Below are positions 3,691 to 13,598 of a stretch of 16,957 nt of DNA, piece after piece; positions within the stretch are counted from its first letter, which is position 1, and the number at the start of each line of letters is the position of its first letter. The stretch lies in the NCBI GenBank assembly GCA_013001485.1, contig JABDMN010000075.1, forward strand, positions 1-16,957. The letters are read 5' to 3'. The notes beneath the pieces are model-generated. The model did not search any database. It was not told the origin of the DNA and saw nothing but the letters and a program-made list of their open reading frames with translations. The stretch comes from Acidimicrobiia bacterium. Lineage in GTDB: Bacteria > Actinomycetota > Acidimicrobiia > Spongiisociales > UBA5794. Position numbers and translations under genes: made by a program.

Positions 3691-4656
3691 TCAGCCCTTG
3701 ACGCTGCCGGCCAGGATGCCTCGTACGAAGTACCGCTGGAGCGCGAAGAACACAGCCAGTGGGAACACGGTCTGGACGAACGCCCCCGCCGCGAGCACGT
3801 GTTCTCGTAATCCGAACTCACCAGCGAGTGACGCGATCGCCACAGTCGCAGGTAGCGCGTCACGGTTGCCGCCGATCATCGTGAGTGCGATCAGATAGTC
3901 GTTCCAGGTCCACAGGAACTGGAAGATGGCGAACGCAGCCAGCACGGGCACCGACAACGGAACCACGAGCCGCCAGAAGATCGTGAAGTGGTCGGCACCG
4001 TCGATGCGGGCAGACTCGAACAGATCACTTGGCAGTCCCGAGATGTAGTTGTGCAGCAGGAAGATGGCGAACGGGAGCGCGAACCCGGTGTGGGTGAGCC
4101 AGACCGCAGGGATCTCACCCGCCAACCCCATATCCGGGAACAAAGTGAGCGTCCTGTCGAGGAACGGAATCGTCAACGCCGCGCCATTCGAGTAGAGCTG
4201 GAGCAACGGGATCAGCGACATCTGGAGCGGAATCGCAAGCAACGAGACGGTGACGATGAACAACCACTCACGGCCCTTGAAGTCGATCCAGGCGAATGCG
4301 TACGCCGCAAACGCTGCGATCGCAATCGGGATGATCGTGGCGGGGATCGCAATGGCAAACGAGTTGACCAGCGCCTGGCCGAGCCCTCCCGTGGCGCCGG
4401 ATCCCAGCACCTCCGTGTAGTTGTCGAGCGTGAACCCACCCTCAGTGAACGCGTTCCAGAAGCCCGAGTTGCGCTGAGCGTCGCGGGTTCTGAATGAGTT
4501 GATGAACAAGCTGAAGGTGGGCAGCGACCACACCATGACCAGCAGCCACAACACCCATGTCGGGATCGACCTGAGGACCCGGTATACCCGCGACCCGAGC
4601 GCCTGCTCGGTCTCGCCTGCAATGTGTACGTCTTGGGGGTTTGTTGTCACTGCCAT
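3691..4656 (-). CDS. Carbohydrate ABC transporter permease, MalG/AglG-like
   Basis: A 321-residue inner-membrane permease of the MalG type with six membrane segments: about 32–52, 97–125, 130–150, 185–205, 236–258 and 290–310. The EAA loop that docks the ATPase is at about 210–232 (DLFESARIDGADHF then TIFWRLVVP). The C-terminus ...QRYFVRGILAGSVKG is typical of AglG-like alpha-glucoside permeases, as is YTEVLGSG near residue 80. The ATG at 4656 shares its A with the stop of the large permease (TGATG), so the two permeases are translationally coupled. It is the last gene of the transporter set, and no ATPase follows before the tRNA. The substrate family is inferred from resemblance and not proven. 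Confidence 0.9.
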   Translation of the reverse strand: MAVTTNPQDVHIAGETEQALGSRVYRVLRSIPTWVLWLLVMVWSLPTFSLFINSFRTRDAQRNSGFWNAFTEGGFTLDNYTEVLGSGATGGLGQALVNSFAIAIPATIIPIAIAAFAAYAFAWIDFKGREWLFIVTVSLLAIPLQMSLIPLLQLYSNGAALTIPFLDRTLTLFPDMGLAGEIPAVWLTHTGFALPFAIFLLHNYISGLPSDLFESARIDGADHFTIFWRLVVPLSVPVLAAFAIFQFLWTWNDYLIALTMIGGNRDALPATVAIASLAGEFGLREHVLAAGAFVQTVFPLAVFFALQRYFVRGILAGSVKG

Positions 4657-6764
4657 CAGGCTGCCGCCTTCTGCATCCGCCGGATATTGATGTACATGAT
4701 CGGGAGCACCGACACGAAGAGGATCACGGCGAGCGCCGAACCGAGCCCGAAGTCGAGCTCAGTGAAGGCTCTCTGCCACATTTCATTGGCGATCACCTCC
4801 GTGTCGAAGTTGCCGTTGGTCATGACCTTCGGAATATCGAACACCTTCATGACCAGCACGATCAGGGTGGTCACCACCACCCCGATGGTGGGAGCAATCT
4901 GCGGAATCACCACGCTCCAGAACGTCTGGTTCTCAGTCGCACCGTCGACCTTCGCCGCCTCGATGAGCTCGGCAGGAACCGCTTTGATGGCGGCCGAGAA
5001 GATGACCATCGTGAAGCCGGTCTGAATCCAGATCAAGACCACCATCATCCACACGTTGTTGAAGGGCGACTCGGTGAGGAACTTCACTGTGTCTGCCTCG
5101 ACGTCGGCACCTAGGCCGGGGCCGATGAACCGCCACGCCAGCCAGAGGAACGGAATCGCCGTGATCACCGACCCCCAGGCGACCCCGGGGACGTTGTGGC
5201 TGAATCCGCGATAGGCGAGATAGCCGAGCATGGCCACGACGACGAGCATGATGCCGGCGGCGATGGCACTGCTTCCACCTGAGCCGCTGACATCGCCTAA
5301 CCACACCCAGATTGCGTTGAAGACACCGGTCTGGACCTCGCCCTCGGGTCGGGCGATGTACATGAACCGCCAGATGATGGCGGCCCCGACGAACGAGATG
5401 GCCATCGGCATGAAGATGATCGACTTGGCGAGGCTCTCCATCGCGGATCGATCGGCGAGGACGGCGATCGCAAGACCGAACACCGTCGCCAGGATCGTCA
5501 CGGTGAAGACCCACCACAGGTTGTTCATGATCGTGCCCCGAAGCACGGTTCCGAGCGAGAACACGCCGATGAACGAGCCGACGGCAATCGAGCCCGTCGA
5601 TGCGCCGCCCGACTGGAACCGTTGGCCGCGATTGGCGCCAGCCACGAAACCGACCAGAACGCCGATCAGGGCGATCACGACACCGATCTGGAACAGCTGG
5701 CTCGTGAAGATGTCCGTCCAGTTGCTCAGGTTGATGGTGTTCGGGTCGGTGAAGAGATTTCCGTAGTTCTCCCCGCCGACGAATTCTGCGGTGTCGGTGA
5801 AGATGAACAGCGAGAAGATGAACAGAGTGGCCCCGCCCAGGTAGGTACCGAGCGAGATGCCATTGCCCTTGTAGCCACCGCCATTGCGACTGCCCTGGTA
5901 GAAGCCGTAGCCGACGCCGATCAGCACGAGCACGACAGCGGCAATGAAGAACGGCTCACCGAAGATGCCGGTCCAGGTCGAGTAAGGCTCGCGCTCAGCC
6001 GTCTGGGAGAAGAACGCCAGGTTGAACAGCGAGAGGTAGATCGTGCGCACGGTCGGGATGACCAGAGTGATCCCGATGAAGATGAGAGCCGGGGCCACGA
6101 AGATGATGGCGCGAGCTCGCTCGGACAGCATCGTGCGGTCCTTGTGTGTGTACACCTTTGCCATCCCGGCATACACGCCGAGTCCGGCACCAACGATGAG
6201 GCTCACGATGACGGCCTGAGCCGCCGTGCCGCCATCGCCCGGGCCTCCCCAGGCTCCGAGCGCGAACCCGAGGGTGCCTCCGAGGACGAGGGACCGGATG
6301 GTGCCCTTGCGGAGGAACATGATGGCGCCGCCGATCACGAGACCTGCCACCAGACCGGTGATTGTGGGACCGACGTCGAGGCGAGGTCGGGCTTCCTCGA
6401 CGAGCGTGAGTCCGAGGATCAGCCCCAGAACGGCGCCGCCACCGACACCGACCATGAGCCGTTGGTTTCGATCAGTCAGCCGGGCGAGGAAGAAGCCCAC
6501 GGCACCGCCGACGATGGCCGCGACGATCGCCTGCCACGGGATCTTGGTCGGGTTGCGGCCGCCTCCAACCTCGAGAGCGGTAATGGCCCGGTTCCCAAAC
6601 AGCCAGAAGAAGAAGATGAGCACGAGCCCGCCACCCGCTACCGCACCGAAGATCTCCCACCTGGTGGGAGCGAGGTCGAAGAGGAGGTTGGCTCCAATGA
6701 AGATCACGGCGCTCAGCCCTACGGCAATCAGCGTCCCGATCACCATCTCGAGAATCTTCTCCAC
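4656..6764 (-). CDS. Greatly enlarged carbohydrate ABC permease, MalF/AglF-like
   Basis: A 702-residue permease; ordinary AglF/MalF-like permeases of this group have about 300 residues. The recognisable core is split. Residues about 213–245 hold the first core helix (RARAIIFVAPALIFIGIT). EFVGGENYGNLFTDP is at about 327–341. NNLWWVFTVTILATVFGLAI, about 414–433, begins the central helices. The EAA loop is at about 599–623 (ELIEAAKVDGATENQ). The rest is added membrane protein: an N-terminal extension of about 210 residues with six or seven Gly/Ala-rich helices, two similar modules at 264–319 and 349–404, and another helix pair at about 500–546. I chose GTG 6764 because GGAGGGAGG lies six bases upstream. 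The earlier in-frame start at 6815 falls inside a strong hairpin. It is coupled to the next permease by TGATG. The core permease identity is certain; the role of the additions is unknown. Confidence 0.9.
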   Translation of the reverse strand: MEKILEMVIGTLIAVGLSAVIFIGANLLFDLAPTRWEIFGAVAGGGLVLIFFFWLFGNRAITALEVGGGRNPTKIPWQAIVAAIVGGAVGFFLARLTDRNQRLMVGVGGGAVLGLILGLTLVEEARPRLDVGPTITGLVAGLVIGGAIMFLRKGTIRSLVLGGTLGFALGAWGGPGDGGTAAQAVIVSLIVGAGLGVYAGMAKVYTHKDRTMLSERARAIIFVAPALIFIGITLVIPTVRTIYLSLFNLAFFSQTAEREPYSTWTGIFGEPFFIAAVVLVLIGVGYGFYQGSRNGGGYKGNGISLGTYLGGATLFIFSLFIFTDTAEFVGGENYGNLFTDPNTINLSNWTDIFTSQLFQIGVVIALIGVLVGFVAGANRGQRFQSGGASTGSIAVGSFIGVFSLGTVLRGTIMNNLWWVFTVTILATVFGLAIAVLADRSAMESLAKSIIFMPMAISFVGAAIIWRFMYIARPEGEVQTGVFNAIWVWLGDVSGSGGSSAIAAGIMLVVVAMLGYLAYRGFSHNVPGVAWGSVITAIPFLWLAWRFIGPGLGADVEADTVKFLTESPFNNVWMMVVLIWIQTGFTMVIFSAAIKAVPAELIEAAKVDGATENQTFWSVVIPQIAPTIGVVVTTLIVLVMKVFDIPKVMTNGNFDTEVIANEMWQRAFTELDFGLGSALAVILFVSVLPIMYINIRRMQKAAA
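5127..5267 (-). repeat. Third inserted membrane hairpin in the large permease
   Basis: Encodes residues about 500–546, two helices joined by a short loop, placed between core segments FNAIWVWLGD and FNNVWMMVVLIWIQTGF. GYLAYRG in it resembles GYGFYQG of the first duplicated module, but wider similarity is weak. It may be a diverged third copy or an independent insertion. Confidence 0.4.
5553..5720 (-). repeat. Internal protein repeat, copy 2 (large permease)
   Basis: Encodes residues 349–404, beginning WTDIF and ending GVFSL. It aligns without gaps to residues 264–319 of the same protein (offset 85) with 22 identities in 56 positions by my count, including WT.IF, VV..LIGV..GF..G and FSL. It lies between EFVGGENYGNLFTDP and the core helix NNLWWVFTVT. 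Confidence 0.75.
5808..5975 (-). repeat. Internal protein repeat, copy 1 (large permease)
   Basis: Encodes residues 264–319, beginning WTGIF and ending FIFSL: a helix, a Gly-rich polar loop (QGSRNGGGYKGNG), and a second helix. It is the partner of the copy at 5553–5720. It sits just after the first core helix, before EFVGGENYGNLFTDP. Confidence 0.75.
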
Positions 6765-6770
6765 CGAATT

Positions 6771-6779
6771 CCTCCCTCC
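6771..6779 (-). promoter_or_regulatory. Strong ribosome binding site deciding the large permease start
   Basis: The minus strand reads GGAGGGAGG, then six bases (AATTCG), then GTG at 6764–6762. This strong match with ideal spacing is why the GTG is preferred over the upstream in-frame ATG at 6815. Confidence 0.75.
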
Positions 6780-6802
6780 GCGAGTGGGTCTGGAAGCTAA
6801 CA

Positions 6803-6830
6803 GGGGCGCCTGCACGAATGCAGGCGCCCC
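6803..6830 (-). terminator. 12-bp perfect hairpin with UUCG loop between binding protein and permease genes
   Basis: In the transcript the arms are GGGGCGCCUGCA and UGCAGGCGCCCC around the tetraloop UUCG, an extra-stable combination. It follows the binding-protein stop by 26 bases and precedes the permease GTG by 38. No uridine run follows (UGUUAGC), so full intrinsic termination is doubtful. The placement suggests an mRNA-stabilising or attenuating element that raises binding protein over permease, as is known for malE–malF regions. Confidence 0.7.
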
Positions 6831-6856
6831 CGTTGTTGGGTTAGTGGTTCAGCGGC

Positions 6857-8140
6857 TTACGGCCACGAAGCGTCGATGGCGGCAAGTGCATCTGCCACCG
6901 ACTTGTCGCCGTTCACAGCGCTCGTTGCCTCGGTCCAGAACGAACCGCCACCGACCGCTGCCGGCATCAGGTCCGAAGCATCGAACCGCACCACGTCGGC
7001 GCCGGAAAGGATGCTGACCAACGACTGCTCGAGCGGCGTGTACACGCTGGTGTCCAGGCCGTTGGCTGCCGAGAGGAAGCCGGAGAGCACGTCGCCGCCA
7101 CCCTTACGGGCGGCCTGAGCCTTCTGACGCTCTTCGGCGTACTCGGCGGTCGAGAAGTACTCCATGACTTCCCACACCTCGGGAGCGTCACGGAAGGACG
7201 CCACCAGGGTGCCTGCACCGAGAACCGGAGCGTTGGCCGGGTCGACTGCGGGGAAGTAGAAGACGTCCACGCCGTCGGGTCCGGTCACCGTGTTCTCAGG
7301 CAGGAATGCCGAGTAGAACGACGCCTGGCGGTGCATGAGGCACTTGCCGTCGACGAGAGGCTGACCGTTGTCACCAAACGGGGTTGCTGCGATCGTGCCA
7401 CCGGCGGCGAACACTGCGCCATCGGTGTTCCACAGATCGAGAACCTCGTTCCACGCCTGCTCGACGCGGGAGTCGGTGAACGGAATGGTGTGATCGACCC
7501 ACTGGTCGTACACATCAGCTCCGTGGAAACGCAGCATCAGGTCCTCGACCCAGTCGGTGAAGGTCCAGCCGGTCGCAGGACCGGACTCGATGCCGACGCA
7601 CCACGGGGTGTCGCCGTTGGCGATCATCTCGTTGGAGAGCGCCTTCAAAGCGTCCCAGGTCTCGGGAACCTCGTAGCCCTTGGCCTCGAAGCTGCCCGGG
7701 ACGTACCACACGAGCGACTTGAGGTCGGTCTTGGTGGGGATGGCGTACTGGGTGCCGTCGACGATGCCGAAGGCATTCCAGGCGGCCGGCCAGTTGTCGG
7801 TCGCCGCATCAGCGACGTCCTCTGGCAAAGCAATCACCAGTCCCTGACGAGCGAAGTCGGCGACCTTGCCAGGCTGCGGGAAGACCGCGATATCAGGTGG
7901 GTTACCACCAATCGCCTGGGCGTTGATCTGATCTGAAAAGTCACGGGCACCGGTGTAGACGATGTCGATACCCGTGCGCTCCGCGAGGATGTCGAGGGCG
8001 TCTTGCAACGCTCCCGCTTCTTCCTCGGAGCTCTCGGGTCCGAATACCGTGACGGATGTGCCTTCCAAGTCGTCGCCACCACACGCTGCTGCGATGAGGG
8101 CAAACGCCAGGACGAGCACAATCCACACGTGCTTACGCAT
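6857..8140 (-). CDS. Carbohydrate ABC transporter substrate-binding lipoprotein, AglE-like
   Basis: A 427-residue extracytoplasmic solute-binding protein that delivers a sugar to the downstream permeases. The lipoprotein signal is MRKHVWIVLVLAFALIAAAC, with lipid attachment expected at C20, followed by GGDD. The mature protein has the family-1 solute-binding pattern. It includes GNPPDIAVFPQPGKVADFA (79–97), YAIPTKTDLKSLVWY (132–146) and ESGPATGWTFTDWVEDLML (185–203), the last strongly reminiscent of alpha-glucoside-binding AglE proteins. The start ATG 8140 has GGAGG nine bases upstream; a longer in-frame reading from 8170 would spoil the signal peptide. A stable hairpin follows the stop, then the two permeases. 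No ATPase gene is in the window. The actual ligand is unknown; an alpha-glycoside such as a sulfoquinovosyl compound is my inference from neighbouring genes. Confidence 0.9.
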   Translation of the reverse strand: MRKHVWIVLVLAFALIAAACGGDDLEGTSVTVFGPESSEEEAGALQDALDILAERTGIDIVYTGARDFSDQINAQAIGGNPPDIAVFPQPGKVADFARQGLVIALPEDVADAATDNWPAAWNAFGIVDGTQYAIPTKTDLKSLVWYVPGSFEAKGYEVPETWDALKALSNEMIANGDTPWCVGIESGPATGWTFTDWVEDLMLRFHGADVYDQWVDHTIPFTDSRVEQAWNEVLDLWNTDGAVFAAGGTIAATPFGDNGQPLVDGKCLMHRQASFYSAFLPENTVTGPDGVDVFYFPAVDPANAPVLGAGTLVASFRDAPEVWEVMEYFSTAEYAEERQKAQAARKGGGDVLSGFLSAANGLDTSVYTPLEQSLVSILSGADVVRFDASDLMPAAVGGGSFWTEATSAVNGDKSVADALAAIDASWP

Positions 8141-8170
8141 TATGGGGTTCCTCCATTTGGGTTTCTCCAA

Positions 8171-8190
8171 CCGGGTCCCGAAGGGACCGG
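8171..8190 (-). other. Hairpin in the presumed leader of the binding-protein gene
   Basis: GGTCCC (8174–8179) and GGGACC (8183–8188) pair around a three-base loop, extended by two outer pairs past a bulged base. It is 31 bases before the ATG. It has no U tract, so it is more likely a leader structure than a terminator. Confidence 0.4.
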
Positions 8191-8237
8191 CGCACCGGAC
8201 GTTAGTGCGAGGCTAGGAAGGGGACCACCCAGCGTAT

Positions 8238-8250
8238 CCCAGATTCTGGG
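8238..8250. promoter_or_regulatory. 13-base palindrome upstream of the transporter operon (candidate operator)
   Basis: CCCAGATTCTGGG is a perfect 6-bp inverted repeat with one central base. It lies in the 113-base gap between the Gfo/Idh stop and the binding-protein start, about 100 bases before that ATG. A regulator site is possible, but it does not match the usual LacI-type core, and no regulator gene is nearby. Confidence 0.3.
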
Positions 8251-8253
8251 AGG

Positions 8254-9327
8254 TCATCGCATGACCTCAGACAGCGCCACCGCTCTCCCCTCCTCGATCG
8301 ACCGATGACCGGCGACGCCCATGGCCACCGACCACAGGCCGTCGTCGAGAGTGACCTTCGGCGATGCCCCTTCCCGGATGGCCCCCAGGAAGTCGATGTG
8401 CTCGAGATATGAGGATCCCTCGTGGAGTCCCTGGTAGACGACATGGTCGTCGTCGACCACGATCTCGCGAACCTGACGCCCCTCGGTGCGGCGCCCCAGC
8501 CGCACAAGATTCTGCGGAACAAAGGCCTCGACCTTCCCGGTGTCTCCGGTGACGGCGATCTCCTGCTCGTTGAGTGAACCCTCCGCGAACATGCACAGAT
8601 CCAGCATGGCTCGGGACCCGTTCTCGTAGTCCACAACGACGAACGCGTTGTCGAGGATGTCAGGCACCTCGCCCTCGTACTCCTCGTCGAGATGGTTCAC
8701 GTCCTGGGCCCCGGAGGCCATGACGGTCTTTGGGCGCGACCCGATGATCAGGTTCATCAGGTCGAAGAAGTGACAGCACTTCTCCACCAGGGTGCCGCCG
8801 GTGTTCCGGCTGAACCGGTTCCAGTCGCCGACCTTGGGCAGGAAGGGGAAGCGATGCTCACGGATCGCCACCATGCGAACCGGCCCCGCGGCCCCGGCTT
8901 CCACCTCGGCGATGAGCCTGGCTATCGACGGCTTGTAGCGGTACTCCAAACCCATCCAGACGATGCCGCTCCGGCTCTCAGCAAGGTCGATGACCTGCTG
9001 GCAGTCCTCGACGGTCGTGCACAAGGGTTTCTCCACGAGCACATGCACGTCGTCATCGGCCCGCAGGACGTCGCTGAGGACATCGACATGGGTCATGTTT
9101 GGAGAGGCGACGACCACTGCATCGACATTGCCGTGCTCGAGCAGGGACGTGTGATCGTGGAACACGGCGAGGTCGTCTGAGCCGACGGCCGCGGCGGCTG
9201 CCTGGCGCGACTCCTCGTGTGGGTCGGCGATTGCGGCGACGGACGCCCCATCGATCGCGGCGATGTTGAGGATGTGCTCGATGCCCATCATCCCGGTTCC
9301 GATGACGCCGTATTTGAACTCGCTCAA
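8254..9327 (-). CDS. Gfo/Idh/MocA-family NAD(P)-dependent oxidoreductase
   Basis: About 357 residues from the preferred TTG. Proteins of this family use NAD(P) on sugars or inositols, and some catalyse NAD-dependent glycoside cleavage. The N-terminal Rossmann motif is GTGMMG at 10–15. The catalytic-lysine motif EKPLCT is at 99–104. The C-terminal domain has GGTLVEKCCHFFDL, in which H186 and D189 match the usual catalytic His/Asp positions. AGGAGG lies four bases upstream of TTG 9327 (giving MSEFKYGVIG), whereas the in-frame GTG at 9351 has no such site, so the TTG is chosen with moderate confidence. The gene lies upstream of the transporter genes in the same direction and divergent from the AKR–monooxygenase pair. 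Substrate and reaction are not readable from sequence alone. Confidence 0.88.
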   Translation of the reverse strand: MSEFKYGVIGTGMMGIEHILNIAAIDGASVAAIADPHEESRQAAAAAVGSDDLAVFHDHTSLLEHGNVDAVVVASPNMTHVDVLSDVLRADDDVHVLVEKPLCTTVEDCQQVIDLAESRSGIVWMGLEYRYKPSIARLIAEVEAGAAGPVRMVAIREHRFPFLPKVGDWNRFSRNTGGTLVEKCCHFFDLMNLIIGSRPKTVMASGAQDVNHLDEEYEGEVPDILDNAFVVVDYENGSRAMLDLCMFAEGSLNEQEIAVTGDTGKVEAFVPQNLVRLGRRTEGRQVREIVVDDDHVVYQGLHEGSSYLEHIDFLGAIREGASPKVTLDDGLWSVAMGVAGHRSIEEGRAVALSEVMR

Positions 9328-9331
9328 CTGC

Positions 9332-9337
9332 CCTCCT
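9332..9337 (-). promoter_or_regulatory. Ribosome binding site supporting a TTG start for the Gfo/Idh gene
   Basis: The minus strand reads AGGAGG, then GCAG, then TTG at 9327–9325. The four-base spacing is short but usable. If the GTG at 9351 were used instead, this element would lie inside the coding region. Confidence 0.5.
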
Positions 9338-9352
9338 GCCTCGGTGTCCACC

Positions 9353-9358
9353 TACGAT
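9353..9358 (+). promoter_or_regulatory. Candidate -10 element for a leaderless AKR transcript
   Basis: TACGAT ends seven bases before the A of the AKR ATG at 9365, and no Shine-Dalgarno sequence precedes that ATG. This layout is typical of actinobacterial leaderless mRNAs. No clear -35 is present. It lies in the roughly 37-base divergent gap. Confidence 0.4.
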
Positions 9359-9364
9359 ACGACG

Positions 9365-10264
9365 ATGCTCATCGACCCGGTTGCACGCACGATCGGTGGC
9401 CTCGAGGTCGCCGCTGGACCACTCTCGTTTGGATGCTGGAGGTTCACGACCGCCGACGTCGGCGAGGCCAGCGGATTGGTCGAGACTGCGCTCGACCTCG
9501 GCATGACGCTCATCGACAACGCCGACGTCTACGGCCTCGACTGGGGTGGGACCGGGTTCGGTGCTGCCGAGGAGCTCCTGGGACGCGTCATGGCTGCGCA
9601 GCCGGGACTTCGCGATCGCATGATCCTCACCACCAAGGGCGGAATCATCCCGGGAGTTCCGTACGACTCGTCACCACAACACATCCGCGGTGCCGTCGAT
9701 GCCTCGTTGCAGCGGCTCGGAGTCGACACCATCGATCTGTATCTGATCCACCGCCCCGACATGTACACCCACCCCGAAGCGGCGGCAACCACGCTGAGCG
9801 AACTCCGCGATGCAGGCAAGGTGCGTGAGGTCGGCGTGTCCAACCACACCCCGACTCAAACAGAGGCTCTGGCAGCCCACCTCGACTTCCCGCTGGCAAC
9901 CACACAGCCTCAGTTCTCGGCCGCTCACCTCGACCCCCTCTTCGACGGCACGATGGACCAGGCCATGCGGCTCGGCGTGGTGCCGCTGGCGTGGAGCCCG
10001 CTGGCAGGTGGCTCACTGGCGACGGGTGAGGGCGTACGGCCCGAGCTGATCGCTGTGCTCGATCGTCTGGCAAACCGGGAGGGTGTGTCACGGTCTGTGA
10101 TCGCTTACGCCTTCGTGCTCGCCCACCCTTCCCGCCCGATCGCCATCGTCGGGACTCAGCGACCCGAGCGGCTCGAAGAGGCGGTCCAGGCCCTCGACGT
10201 GACGCTGGTTCACAGCGACGTATACGACATCATCGAAGCATCGACCGGCACACCGCTGCCGTGA
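9365..10264 (+). CDS. Aldo/keto reductase
   Basis: A 299-residue cytoplasmic NADPH-dependent aldo/keto reductase resembling the YdhF group. The catalytic tetrad is complete: D51 and Y56 in IDNADVYG, K91 in TTKGG and H129 in LYLIHRPD. GKVREVGVSN and the late AWSPLAGGSL segment fit the barrel strands that bind cofactor. The start is ATG 9365 (MLIDPVARTIGG). The in-frame reading from 9263 extends through the divergent Gfo/Idh gene and is not used. The stop is 19 bases before the SsuD-like monooxygenase, so the two form a bicistronic unit. In sulfoquinovose oxidative desulfonation an AKR reduces the 6-oxo-glucose left after sulfite release. That role here is an inference from the neighbour. Confidence 0.88.
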   Translation: MLIDPVARTIGGLEVAAGPLSFGCWRFTTADVGEASGLVETALDLGMTLIDNADVYGLDWGGTGFGAAEELLGRVMAAQPGLRDRMILTTKGGIIPGVPYDSSPQHIRGAVDASLQRLGVDTIDLYLIHRPDMYTHPEAAATTLSELRDAGKVREVGVSNHTPTQTEALAAHLDFPLATTQPQFSAAHLDPLFDGTMDQAMRLGVVPLAWSPLAGGSLATGEGVRPELIAVLDRLANREGVSRSVIAYAFVLAHPSRPIAIVGTQRPERLEEAVQALDVTLVHSDVYDIIEASTGTPLP

Positions 10265-10283
10265 AGACGAAGGAGACAACGAC

Positions 10284-11339
10284 ATGACCATCGAGGTGGC
10301 CTGGTTCGGAGCTCTGTGCGACGACGACTACGAGTTCCTCGGAGTTCCGGAGCCGGCCCTCCGCAGTTCGTGGGATCACTGCTCGGACATCGTCAAGACA
10401 GCCGACCGCAATGGCTTCGACAACGTCTTGTTGCCGTCCGGGTACACGCTTGGAATCGACACAGTTGCCTTTGCCTCGGCCATCGCCACGCACACCGAGA
10501 ACATCAAGCTGCTGGTCGCAGTGCGCATGGGCGAGATGCACCTCCCCCAGCTGGCCCGTCAGTTGGCAACCATCGACCAGATGTCGGGGGGGAGGCTCAA
10601 CATCAACATCATCTCTTCCGACATCCCGGGCGAGAAGCTCGCCAGCGAACCCCGGTACCAGCGAACCGCCGAGTGGATGCAGGTCCTGCGGTCGCTGCTC
10701 AATGGAGAGTCGGTGGACTTCCACGGCGACTTCGTGGACCTCGCGATCGATCCGCCACGCGTCAGAACTGTCTCAGGGACCAGCCCCCCGTTCTACTTCG
10801 GGGGCTTCTCGGAGCCGGCGAAGGAAACCGCGGCGGCCCACTCCGACGTTTTTCTCACGTGGCCCGACACCGTGGCTGCGGTGGCCGAGACGGTCACCGA
10901 CATGCGCCAGCGAGCGGAGCGCCACGGTCGCGAGCTGCGCTACGGGCTCCGGAGCCACGTCATTGTGAGAGAGACCGAGGCCGAAGCGCGAGCGGCGGCT
11001 CAGCACCTCATCTCGAAGCTCGACACCGACACGGGAGAGACGATCCGTAAGAAGTCGCTCGATGCAGCGTCGGTCGGTGTGCAACGACAATCGGCGTTGC
11101 GAGAGGAAGCTGATGACGGGGGCTACGCCGAGCCCAACCTGTGGACCGGTGTGGGCCGCGCCCGATCCGGCGCCGGTGCCGCCATCGTCGGCGACCCCGA
11201 CCAGGTAGCCGCCAAACTCGAGGCCTACCGGGAGGTCGGCATCGAGGCGTTCATCCTGTCGGGATACCCCCACGTCGACGAGTGCGACCTCTTCGCCGAG
11301 CACGTGCTGCCGAAACTCGACCACGGCCCACTCTCCTAG
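10284..11339 (+). CDS. SsuD-like FMNH2-dependent sulfonate monooxygenase (LLM class)
   Basis: A 351-residue luciferase-like monooxygenase closely related to alkanesulfonate monooxygenase SsuD, which uses FMNH2 and O2 to release sulfite and leave an aldehyde. Conserved SsuD blocks are IKLLVAVR (74–81), PPFYFGGFSEPAKETAAAH (168–186), VFLTWPD (189–195), LRSHVIVRET (222–231), NLWTGVGRARSGAGAAIVGD (285–304) and FILSGYPH (323–330). H225, R223 and Y328 match SsuD residues known to matter for catalysis (His228, Arg226, Tyr331). The SsuD Cys54 position is Leu56 here (PSGYTLGID), and the loop after NIISSD is shorter, so the substrate probably differs. AAGGAG lies eight bases before the ATG. It is paired with the AKR; no flavin reductase gene is in the window. 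Sulfonate oxidation is likely; the exact substrate is open. Confidence 0.9.
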   Translation: MTIEVAWFGALCDDDYEFLGVPEPALRSSWDHCSDIVKTADRNGFDNVLLPSGYTLGIDTVAFASAIATHTENIKLLVAVRMGEMHLPQLARQLATIDQMSGGRLNINIISSDIPGEKLASEPRYQRTAEWMQVLRSLLNGESVDFHGDFVDLAIDPPRVRTVSGTSPPFYFGGFSEPAKETAAAHSDVFLTWPDTVAAVAETVTDMRQRAERHGRELRYGLRSHVIVRETEAEARAAAQHLISKLDTDTGETIRKKSLDAASVGVQRQSALREEADDGGYAEPNLWTGVGRARSGAGAAIVGDPDQVAAKLEAYREVGIEAFILSGYPHVDECDLFAEHVLPKLDHGPLS

Positions 11340-11346
11340 GTGGACC

Positions 11347-12240
11347 TCACCGCGCTGCTTGGTTGAGAAGCGCGTCGAGCGCCTCCGGAAGCTCGGGGTG
11401 TGAGAACTCGAATCCGTCTTCGGCAAGTCGCGAAGGAATGACTCGGGCAGATGTGAACAGCAGGGCCTCGGCGAGCTGCTTGCCGAGAAGGGCGTTCAAG
11501 GCGAGACGCGGTGTTGGGATCACGGTCGGGCGCTCCAGGACATCACCGAGAATCCTGGTGTACTCGACGTTGGTGACCGGCTCGGGTGCGGTGAGATTGA
11601 CGGCGCCGTCCATCTGTGAGGTGAGCAGGTGCTCGATGGCACGGACCGTGTCGATCACCGTGATCCAGCTCCACCATTGGTCACCGGCGCCGAGCCGTCC
11701 TCCCAGACCGAACTTGAACGGCATCAGCATCCTTCCCAGTGCGCCGCCGTCCTCGTCGAGCACGATCCCGGTGCGGAGGCAGACCACCCGCGCCCCCGCC
11801 TCGGCGGCCGGCTCCGTGGCTGCCTCCCACTCGACGCATACCCGGGCCAGGAAGTCGTCGCCCGGAGGCTCGGGCTCCTCGAGCACGTCTGAGCCGCGAT
11901 CCCCGTAGTAGCCGATGGCCGAACTGGACAGCAGCATCGGTCGATTCGGGGCTGCAGCAACGGCGCGAGCAACGAGGTCGGTGCCCTTGATGCGCGACGA
12001 GCGGATGGCCGACTTGCGGGCCGATGTCCACCGCTTGTCTCCGATACCCGCACCGGCCAGGTGAATGACCGCGTCGAAGTCGTCGAGGGGATCGATCGCG
12101 TTGCGGTGCGGGTCCCAGAATGCTTCTCCCTCCCCGGGGTCCCGCCGGACATACGCCACGACATCATGTCCTGTGGCCTCGAGCCGGGGTACGAGGTGGG
12201 AGCCGATGAGGCCCGATGACCCGGTGACGGCGATTCTCAT
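11347..12240 (-). CDS. TIGR01777-family epimerase-like NAD(P)-binding protein
   Basis: A 297-residue extended short-chain dehydrogenase/epimerase-like protein of the TIGR01777 (SulA/YfcH-like) family, with no firm substrate. The Rossmann motif TGSSGLIG is at 6–13. The family blocks HLAGAGIGDKRWT (60–72), SSSAIGYYGD (105–114) and LRTGIVLDEDGGAL are all present. The C-terminal DUF1731 domain covers about the last 50 residues (LLGKQLAEALLF...SRLAEDGFEF). The start ATG 12240 overlaps the stop of the polymerase-like gene in an ATGA; the longer in-frame reading to 12504 is rejected. It ends eight bases from the convergent SsuD-like gene, with no clear terminator between them. It is last in the tmk–holB–plsC run. 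Confidence 0.88.
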   Translation of the reverse strand: MRIAVTGSSGLIGSHLVPRLEATGHDVVAYVRRDPGEGEAFWDPHRNAIDPLDDFDAVIHLAGAGIGDKRWTSARKSAIRSSRIKGTDLVARAVAAAPNRPMLLSSSAIGYYGDRGSDVLEEPEPPGDDFLARVCVEWEAATEPAAEAGARVVCLRTGIVLDEDGGALGRMLMPFKFGLGGRLGAGDQWWSWITVIDTVRAIEHLLTSQMDGAVNLTAPEPVTNVEYTRILGDVLERPTVIPTPRLALNALLGKQLAEALLFTSARVIPSRLAEDGFEFSHPELPEALDALLNQAAR

Positions 12241-13598
12241 CCGGGGGAGTCGCGGGTCACCGGGGCGAGGATCATGACGATGACACCCAGAGCAAGACCG
12301 TGAGTGACGAGCGAGGTCAACAGGCCGGTGTTGACGAGCGGAAGCAGTGGAGCGACGAGGAGGAGCGCCGGGACGACCAGCGACCGGCCACGCAAGAAGC
12401 TGTCCGCCAGGTACAAGCCGAACACAAGAAGAACCGTCATGGCGATGATCCCGACGAACCCGAAGTTGGCGAAGCCATCGGCCCAGAGGTTGCCGTTCGC
12501 CCATGGCGACGAATCAGGGAAGTACGTCGTACCGATCAACACGGGCGGCGGATCGACGTAGGGCGTTTCGACAAAGGGGCCGAGGATGCTGTGGTCCAGG
12601 TTCGCTTTGGGGCGCCCGGAGAAGAAATCGAAGTACAGACCCGTCATCAGACCCGGGGTGGCGAGCGCCCTCCGGAACAGCAGCGACAGAATCCACGAGG
12701 ATCCCGCCGTCGCCACTGGACCAGACGTCGTGATGTGAGCGAGGGTCACGGCCCCCAAGGCGCCTGATGAGCCCCAGGCCATGGCGGTTCCAAGCGGAGT
12801 CCGCCAGGACCGCAGCAGAACGTATAGCCCGAGCACAACGGCGAGCAAGGCAACCGCGCCCTTCAGGCCCGTGGCAGCGAACACCAGATACTGCAGGCCG
12901 AGTCCGACGGTCACGAGATACCAGCGCCGCGTGTGGAGACCCCACACAACCAGGGCTGGATTGATGACGTTGGCCTGCCATCCCACCAGGTAGGCGACGG
13001 CCCGACCGGCCTCACCAACCGCATCGGCGTAGTCGGCCCGGACGTCGTACACCGCTCCGATGTCGGCCAGGGAAAACGAGAAGTTCAGCTTCCAGACCAT
13101 CACGGTGACAGTGACGACGCTCATTGCCCCGAGCAGCCCAATAAACGAACGGGGGCTCAGCGAAACCTGCGGCAGGCGCAGGAGCGGAACCCGACGAGCC
13201 AGCGGGAACACGGCCAGTGCGAGGCCGAGGACGGTCGCAAGCTGGAGCTGATCCGCAGTCGCCGCACCGACGGCGTACAGCGGGACCGTCATCGATGGGA
13301 CGAACACGACGAGGTACAGAATCCACTCAGCAACTCCCGAAACGCGACCCAGGCGTGTCGGCAGCCAGATCGCAGGAAAGACCGAGAACACCAACAGGAC
13401 AGCCCACACACCGAAACCCGGTCGGGCGTACCCGTAGCCCTGGTCGGTGAACACATCGCCGACGAAATGGACATAGGTCAAGTTGAACAAGGCCACGTAG
13501 GCGATGACGCCTCCGGCAACCAGTGCTCGCGGCGAGATCGCTCGCTCCCAGCTCATCCCGAGCCGGGCTAGAACGGCCGATCTCGTCACCTCAGGCAC
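12237..13598 (-). CDS. Multi-pass membrane protein, Wzy/O-antigen-polymerase-like
   Basis: A 453-residue protein with about eleven hydrophobic segments spread over its whole length. A long extracytoplasmic loop at about 330–380 contains NLDHSILGPFVETPYVDPP and WANGNLWADGFANFGFVG. That last pattern (N-x-A-D-x-x-x-N-F-G) is characteristic of oligosaccharide repeat-unit polymerases that join glycan units on a lipid carrier at the outer face of the membrane. The start is GTG 13598, overlapping plsC by eight bases, and the stop overlaps the next gene as ATGA. No glycosyltransferase or flippase lies beside it, which is unusual for a polymerase. Membrane topology is certain; the polymerase assignment is moderate. 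Confidence 0.75.
   Translation of the reverse strand: MPEVTRSAVLARLGMSWERAISPRALVAGGVIAYVALFNLTYVHFVGDVFTDQGYGYARPGFGVWAVLLVFSVFPAIWLPTRLGRVSGVAEWILYLVVFVPSMTVPLYAVGAATADQLQLATVLGLALAVFPLARRVPLLRLPQVSLSPRSFIGLLGAMSVVTVTVMVWKLNFSFSLADIGAVYDVRADYADAVGEAGRAVAYLVGWQANVINPALVVWGLHTRRWYLVTVGLGLQYLVFAATGLKGAVALLAVVLGLYVLLRSWRTPLGTAMAWGSSGALGAVTLAHITTSGPVATAGSSWILSLLFRRALATPGLMTGLYFDFFSGRPKANLDHSILGPFVETPYVDPPPVLIGTTYFPDSSPWANGNLWADGFANFGFVGIIAMTVLLVFGLYLADSFLRGRSLVVPALLLVAPLLPLVNTGLLTSLVTHGLALGVIVMILAPVTRDSPG

Follow-up and report, generated by a model that had tools for sequence, protein, structure and literature searches.

Does the group of six genes on this contig of an Acidimicrobiia-type genome encode the uptake and oxidative desulfonation of sulfoquinovose, the sulfur-containing membrane sugar of plants and algae, or have a sugar importer and a sulfonate monooxygenase come together by chance? 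The window (the whole stretch analysed, 16,957 nucleotides) is one complete contig of a 2.25 Mb genome assembled in 405 contigs and 83% complete. The first-pass annotation had noted a sugar ABC importer, a Gfo/Idh protein, an aldo/keto reductase (AKR) and an SsuD-like monooxygenase lying together, the last two 19 bases apart, and had read them as a locus for sulfosugar import and desulfonation. All these genes were confirmed (Table 1), and the reading gained support from the monooxygenase tree, from the identity of the Gfo/Idh protein as a GH188 member and from co-occurrence in other genomes. We consider it very probable that the locus encodes breakdown of sulfoquinovose by the sulfo-SMO (sulfo-ASMO) pathway, entered through a GH188 enzyme.

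Organization of the locus

Table 1. Features of the candidate sulfoquinovose locus, in window positions.
Feature	Position	Strand	Supporting match
ABC importer permease, GlcU/UgpE/MalG type	3691-4656	-	PF00528 (BPD_transp_1), 52.7 bits
Unusually long ABC importer permease (719 aa)	4656-6815	-	PF00528, residues 549-705 only
Lipoprotein-type solute receptor, AcbH-like	6857-8170	-	SBP_bac_1
Gfo/Idh-fold protein, predicted GH188 sulfoquinovosidase (SqgA)	8254-9351	-	GFO_IDH_MocA; 8qc3, 335 bits
Short divergent region between GH188 and AKR genes	9328-9364	.	possible -10 elements
Aldo/keto reductase, predicted SmoB/SquF role	9365-10264	+	Aldo_ket_red PF00248, 184 bits
Flavin-dependent monooxygenase, predicted SmoC/SquD role	10284-11339	+	Bac_luciferase; 7olf, 364 bits

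The genes are arranged divergently. The Gfo/Idh protein, the receptor, the long permease and the second permease are read leftward from 9351, and the AKR and the monooxygenase rightward from 9365. The AKR stop codon ends at 10264 and the monooxygenase ATG lies at 10284. The third-position G+C content is 0.78-0.84 across all six genes. The alignment of homologues makes the ATG at 9365 a more likely AKR start than 9263; for the GH188 gene, a TTG at 9327 behind an AGGAGGG sequence is a possible start in place of the GTG at 9351. Within the spacer, TACGAT (+ strand) and TATCGT (- strand) resemble -10 sequences and could act as promoter elements, and a stretch of 19 bases is identical in a congener (G001; L065 2150-2180). 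So short a divergent spacer suggests short-leader or leaderless divergent transcripts. The flanking genes (a SigH-type sigma factor, tRNA-Thr and a TIGR01777 protein) look unrelated to the locus, and a 453-aa protein at 12237-13598 matched nothing in Pfam or NCBIfam at 0.001.

The top NCBIfam matches of the shorter permease are GlcU, UgpE and MalG, each below its cut-off, and copies 59-80% identical to it were found on 15 GH188-bearing pieces from relatives. The long permease has 17 hydrophobic segments (Kyte-Doolittle); its homologues measure 640-719 aa in most uncut relatives and 448 aa in one.

The predicted enzymes

Against PDB sequences the Gfo/Idh protein scored 331-335 bits with 8qc3, 8zn9 and 8qc2, and 103 with the next entry, 3ezy. 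Its identity to ArSqgA (8qc3) is 48.3% (168/348); 8QC2 and 8QC3 are described as SqgA structures in PMC10755693. All eight mapped ArSqgA ligand residues are kept: the sulfonate triad Arg166/Leu170/Lys172 of that paper corresponds to R167, L171 and K173, and the ligand/catalytic residues Lys107, Tyr136, Glu189, His193 and His321 to K108, Y137, E190, H194 and H310. The counterpart of Glu190 is reported there to contact the C4-OH. Glu163 of the same paper aligns to Val/Arg, with the neighbouring Glu (E165) kept. Residue 171 is Leu, in contrast to the Tyr of the actinobacterial Tyr-variant GH188. The eight residues are invariant in all 27 aligned GH188 rows of the same order (uncut genes from genomes other than G046 and G032). 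The sulfonate motif R-x-P-[FYL]-L-x-K is absent from eight control rows, which represent six distinct Gfo/Idh ORFs of the same genome and its relatives, one of them a 103-aa piece too short for the motif. By PDB scores and ligand residues the protein thus belongs to GH188 and is a predicted NAD-dependent sulfoquinovosidase, the glycosidase role that the first-pass annotation had suggested for it.

The monooxygenase scored highest with 7olf (364 bits) and 7oh2 (363 bits), which we take to be SmoC structures (their PDB names are methanesulfonate sulfonatase and alkanesulfonate monooxygenase), followed by MsuD (254 bits) and SsuD (226 bits). The corresponding identities are 50.3/50.4%, 41.2% and 39.1%. 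In a tree of 29 rows a branch with 100/100 support splits the window protein, 24 relatives hand-chosen from the best 80 of 489 loci and 7olf/7oh2 from SsuD/MsuD, a group represented by two rows only; the root was placed between these two and the rest. Bootstrap was unsettled and 14 of the 26 inner branches are open. An inner 99/96 branch unites 7olf/7oh2 with 14 rows, most of them from outside the Acidimicrobiia; the window protein lies outside this branch with 10 rows and SsuD/MsuD, and 7olf/7oh2 themselves sit on a long branch (2.16). At the 121 alignment columns that separate 7olf/7oh2 from MsuD/SsuD, the window protein agrees with SmoC in 50, with SsuD/MsuD in 29 and with neither in 42. 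The protein therefore belongs to a subgroup apart from 7olf/7oh2, and a shared substrate is a prediction. The residues that we take to form the SsuD-type active site (R226, H228, R297, Y331, H333) are kept as R223, H225, R294, Y328 and H330, a set common to SmoC and SsuD, and the position of SsuD Cys54 is occupied by Leu56. On sequence grounds the enzyme is of the SmoC type and falls in a separate subgroup, with a predicted substrate and activity; tree and identities part it from SsuD/MsuD, in keeping with the sulfo-SMO kind of SsuD-like enzyme first proposed.

For the AKR, residues D85, Y90, K125 and H163 (numbering from the 9263 ORF), presumably the AKR tetrad, are invariant in 7/7. Its PDB scores are equal with 7bby, which we take to be SmoB (143.6 bits), with 4r9o (143.8 bits) and with YdhF-type reductases (YdhF 1ur3, 139.8 bits), so that its assignment to SmoB derives from its pairing with the monooxygenase. 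Homology and this pairing form the basis of its proposed SmoB/SquF role.

No flavin reductase or ATPase was found among the scanned genes of the locus. Other contigs of the genome carry two Flavin_Reduct genes, one FMN_red gene and one MalK-type ATPase, and TauE-type genes are present in the genome, unlinked; candidates for the flavin reductase, ATPase and sulfite exporter that the first-pass annotation had advised looking for are thus all found away from the locus. The ordinary glycosidase GH31, which it had not seen, was not found anywhere in the genome (83% complete) and was rejected as the glycosidase of this locus. Among the best 80 of 489 SmoC loci, an ATPase is linked in 32 and Flavin_Reduct in one. 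The Flavin_Reduct profile was built from 10 rows and recognised 10/10 of them when left out; the single hit (L167) is a contig of G080, whose own protein was part of the profile.

Linkage across genomes

Co-occurrence was followed in 99 genomes (the source genome and those of the same genus, family and order). GH188 was found in 32, SmoC (E 1e-40) in eight and the AKR (E 1e-30) in seven, the latter all within the eight SmoC genomes (Fisher 5e-10, a test that ignores kinship). SmoC, AKR and GH188 are all adjacent in six of the eight. Two SmoC-bearing genomes, G087 (86% complete) and G082 (77%), gave no GH188 match at 1e-40. In G087 (L070 11713-15704) genes for SmoC, a GNAT protein, SmoB and an alpha/beta hydrolase adjoin an importer of the oligopeptide type (SBP_bac_5 receptor), and G082 (L071) has the same importer type next to a cut SmoC and a serine-esterase-like gene. 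These loci possibly serve a different sulfonate or an acylated substrate.

A wider scan of named GTDB genomes with two SmoC motifs yielded 489 confirmed loci, of which the best 80, including four contigs of G001, G010, G042 and G080, were analysed. A same-strand AKR lies at most 2.6 kb from SmoC in 74 of these 80, and GH188 at most 4 kb away in 54; among the 58 loci whose flanks reach 4 kb or more before the gene and 3 kb or more after it, 39 have linked GH188. The gene set thus co-occurs as the first reading had demanded of a genuine locus, and its recurrence in other genomes makes the grouping more than chance. GH31 adjoins SmoC in six of the best 80 loci, all Caulobacter and sphingomonad-type records, and never together with GH188 (Fisher 8e-4, again ignoring kinship). 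Note that GH31 was sought with ORFs from three G025 loci as queries and not with a family model; PF01055 was confirmed on one of the six. Twelve of the 26 loci without linked GH188 were followed on longer contigs, and GH188 was present elsewhere in 12/12 of their genomes (one match is partial), compared with 32/99 in the source genome and its relatives. The remaining 14 include the six with GH31. Eleven of these unlinked GH188 places were fetched (one piece is 3.7 kb long); with weak LacI matches set aside, none of the other reference proteins had a match there at 1e-15. Six of the best 80 loci have no AKR. Long flanks without a neighbouring SmoB-type AKR surround the SmoC-type genes of L162, L165, L169 and L173; GH188 is still adjacent in L162, L165 and L169, and the neighbours in L173 are siderophore-uptake-type genes.

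GH188 also occurs next to other cassettes. Among 26 relatives with GH188 and no SmoC, 14 have an isomerase homologue beside GH188; the sole NCBIfam match of the reference isomerase at 1e-20 is the sulfoquinovose isomerase SftI (264 bits against a cut-off of 700). These 14 pieces bear varying sets of PfkB kinase, LacD-type aldolase, FSA-type transaldolase, GAPDH-type, threonine-synthase-type and 2-hydroxyacid-dehydrogenase or sulfolactate-dehydrogenase-like genes. In seven others (L079, L080, L084, L089, L090, L094, L095) GH188 adjoins GH13 genes, together with GH1 in six and a 2-hydroxyacid-dehydrogenase match in three; matches to SmoBC, isomerase, kinase, aldolase and transaldolase were all absent nearby, and the five that were aligned retain an intact sulfonate motif. 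The last five have no cassette by GH188, four of them on pieces shorter than 6.3 kb.

The receptor of the window is nearest AcbH, which we take to be a galactose receptor: a PDB profile search at 1e-15 returned AcbH rows only, and no SmoF row was seen among the 50 PDB entries listed in the comparison. Its proposed ligand is sulfoquinovosyl glycerol or sulfoquinovose. Near SmoC in the best 80 of 489 loci, the receptor was found 26 times and the permeases 35 and 36 times. Importer genes of the window type also occur on 11 of the 14 isomerase pieces and on four of the seven GH13 pieces. This distribution is the best evidence on the importer substrate, and the spread over isomerase, GH13 and SmoC loci leaves GH188 as the common partner. 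It is the ground for a broader view, to which we give an even chance: that the importer, whose AcbH-like receptor would be of a type new for sulfoquinovosides, forms with GH188 an entry module in this actinomycetotal order, to which cassettes of varying kind are attached (smoBC for C-S cleavage, isomerase-kinase-aldolase or isomerase-transaldolase sulfoglycolysis, or a GH13/GH1 set perhaps for glucosylglycerol-like analogues).

Predicted pathway and its alternatives

In the proposed pathway the ABC importer would take in sulfoquinovosyl glycerol or related sulfoquinovosides, a role suggested by its context. GH188 would cleave the glycoside through a transient NAD+-linked oxidation at C3, the chemistry described in PMC10755693, and free sulfoquinovose. 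Using reduced flavin and O2, the SmoC-type monooxygenase would then break the C-S bond to give sulfite and 6-dehydroglucose, which the AKR would reduce to glucose; both roles are predictions based on homology and on the pairing of the two genes. Genes on other contigs would provide reduced flavin and ATP hydrolysis, and sulfite would leave by an unlinked TauE-type exporter or be oxidised. F420 in place of FMN was also considered as a conceivable reductant.

The alternatives concern the importer, the sugar and the pathway itself. The importer might mainly serve alpha-glucosides such as glucosylglycerol, with sulfoquinovosides incidental and GH188-SmoBC fed by leakage or by a second importer. 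The AcbH-like receptor, whose close homologues some sources name alpha-glucoside receptors, would fit this idea, as would the four GH13-type pieces on which the importer stands by GH188 and alpha-amylase-type genes; the presence of same-type genes on most isomerase pieces and at many SmoC loci among the best 80 of 489 speaks against it, and we hold it to be unlikely. Still less probable is that the monooxygenase and AKR act on another 6-sulfonated sugar or glycoside, for instance sulfofucose, by the same logic of import, hydrolysis and desulfonation. The separate monooxygenase subgroup, 50% identical to 7olf/7oh2, and a receptor closest to a presumably galactose-specific one would allow for such a substrate, against which stand the eight sulfoquinovose-contact residues kept in GH188, Glu190 among them, and the sulfoquinovose-isomerase homologues of 14/26 sister loci.

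An ordinary SsuD-type pair for scavenging alkanesulfonate sulfur, placed by chance near a sugar importer and an unrelated Gfo/Idh dehydrogenase, could account for SsuD being the best NCBIfam model of the monooxygenase (298 bits, below the cut-off of 518) and for the name alkanesulfonate monooxygenase that sources give to some homologues. Sequence identities, the tree and the GH188 residues argue against it, and so does the linkage of GH188 in 54 and GH31 in six others of the best 80 of 489 loci. On identity, tree and linkage we rejected this explanation, which we regard as highly improbable.

Relation to described systems

The predicted sulfo-SMO pathway of the window resembles the systems described with SmoC/SquD and SmoB/SquF (PMC9594981, PMC12890257) in combining an SsuD-type monooxygenase and an AKR with a sugar importer and a glycosidase. 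It differs from them, as there described, in the actinobacterial host, GH188 without GH31, the AcbH-like receptor and the absence of a linked flavin reductase or ATPase. According to PMC9594981 a flavin reductase is linked in many but not all sulfo-SMO clusters and is missing in N. aromaticivorans. GH188 in sulfo-SMO clusters is reported in PMC10755693, where it is near-universal in the Roseobacter clade, with the same ligand residues and pairing as here; the host differs, Arthrobacter being the sole actinobacterium among the ten organisms of its Fig. 5 legend. Of the first-pass proposal that a Gfo/Idh partner and an unlinked flavin reductase make this a variant form, the two features therefore stand and the variant status is weakened, both having been published (PMC10755693; PMC9594981, N. 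aromaticivorans). Frequent sulfo-SMO clusters in Actinomycetota among aquatic genomes were called from smoB and smoC within ten reading frames of each other in PMC13372026, a spacing also found here; its main text has no mention of Acidimicrob-, Ilumatobacter, GH188 or SqgA, and families 31 and 188 appear in words. The sulfo-EMP-type clusters of Arthrobacter and of Tyr-variant actinobacteria (PMC8873060, PMC11465081) likewise combine an actinobacterial GH188 with an ABC importer, but as described there they cut the carbon chain, whereas C-S cleavage is expected here. A literature search of limited reach found no publication on sulfoquinovose in Acidimicrobiia or Ilumatobacter. The pairing of sulfo-SMO with GH188 and clusters without flavin reductase are thus already known; what is new here lies in the host, from the Acidimicrobiia, a group for which the pathway has been little described, and in the AcbH-like receptor.

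Sulfoquinovose is produced at a gigaton scale yearly (PMC10755693, PMC13372026), and its use by C-S cleavage has been placed mainly in alpha- and beta-proteobacteria (PMC9594981, PMC12890257). Among the best 80 of 489 SmoC loci, 49 come from records with Acidimicrobi-, Ilumatobacter-, Microthrix or MedAcidi in the title and another 11 from records with other actinobacterial titles (hand count), a sample biased to the Acidimicrobiia-type group because the query came from it. It includes a named strain, Ilumatobacter nonamiensis YM16-303, whose GH188 is unlinked and in which the pathway can be put to the test. Annotation of sulfonate cycling would benefit from knowing that smoBC is accompanied by either GH188 or GH31, and that different cassettes adjoin one importer.
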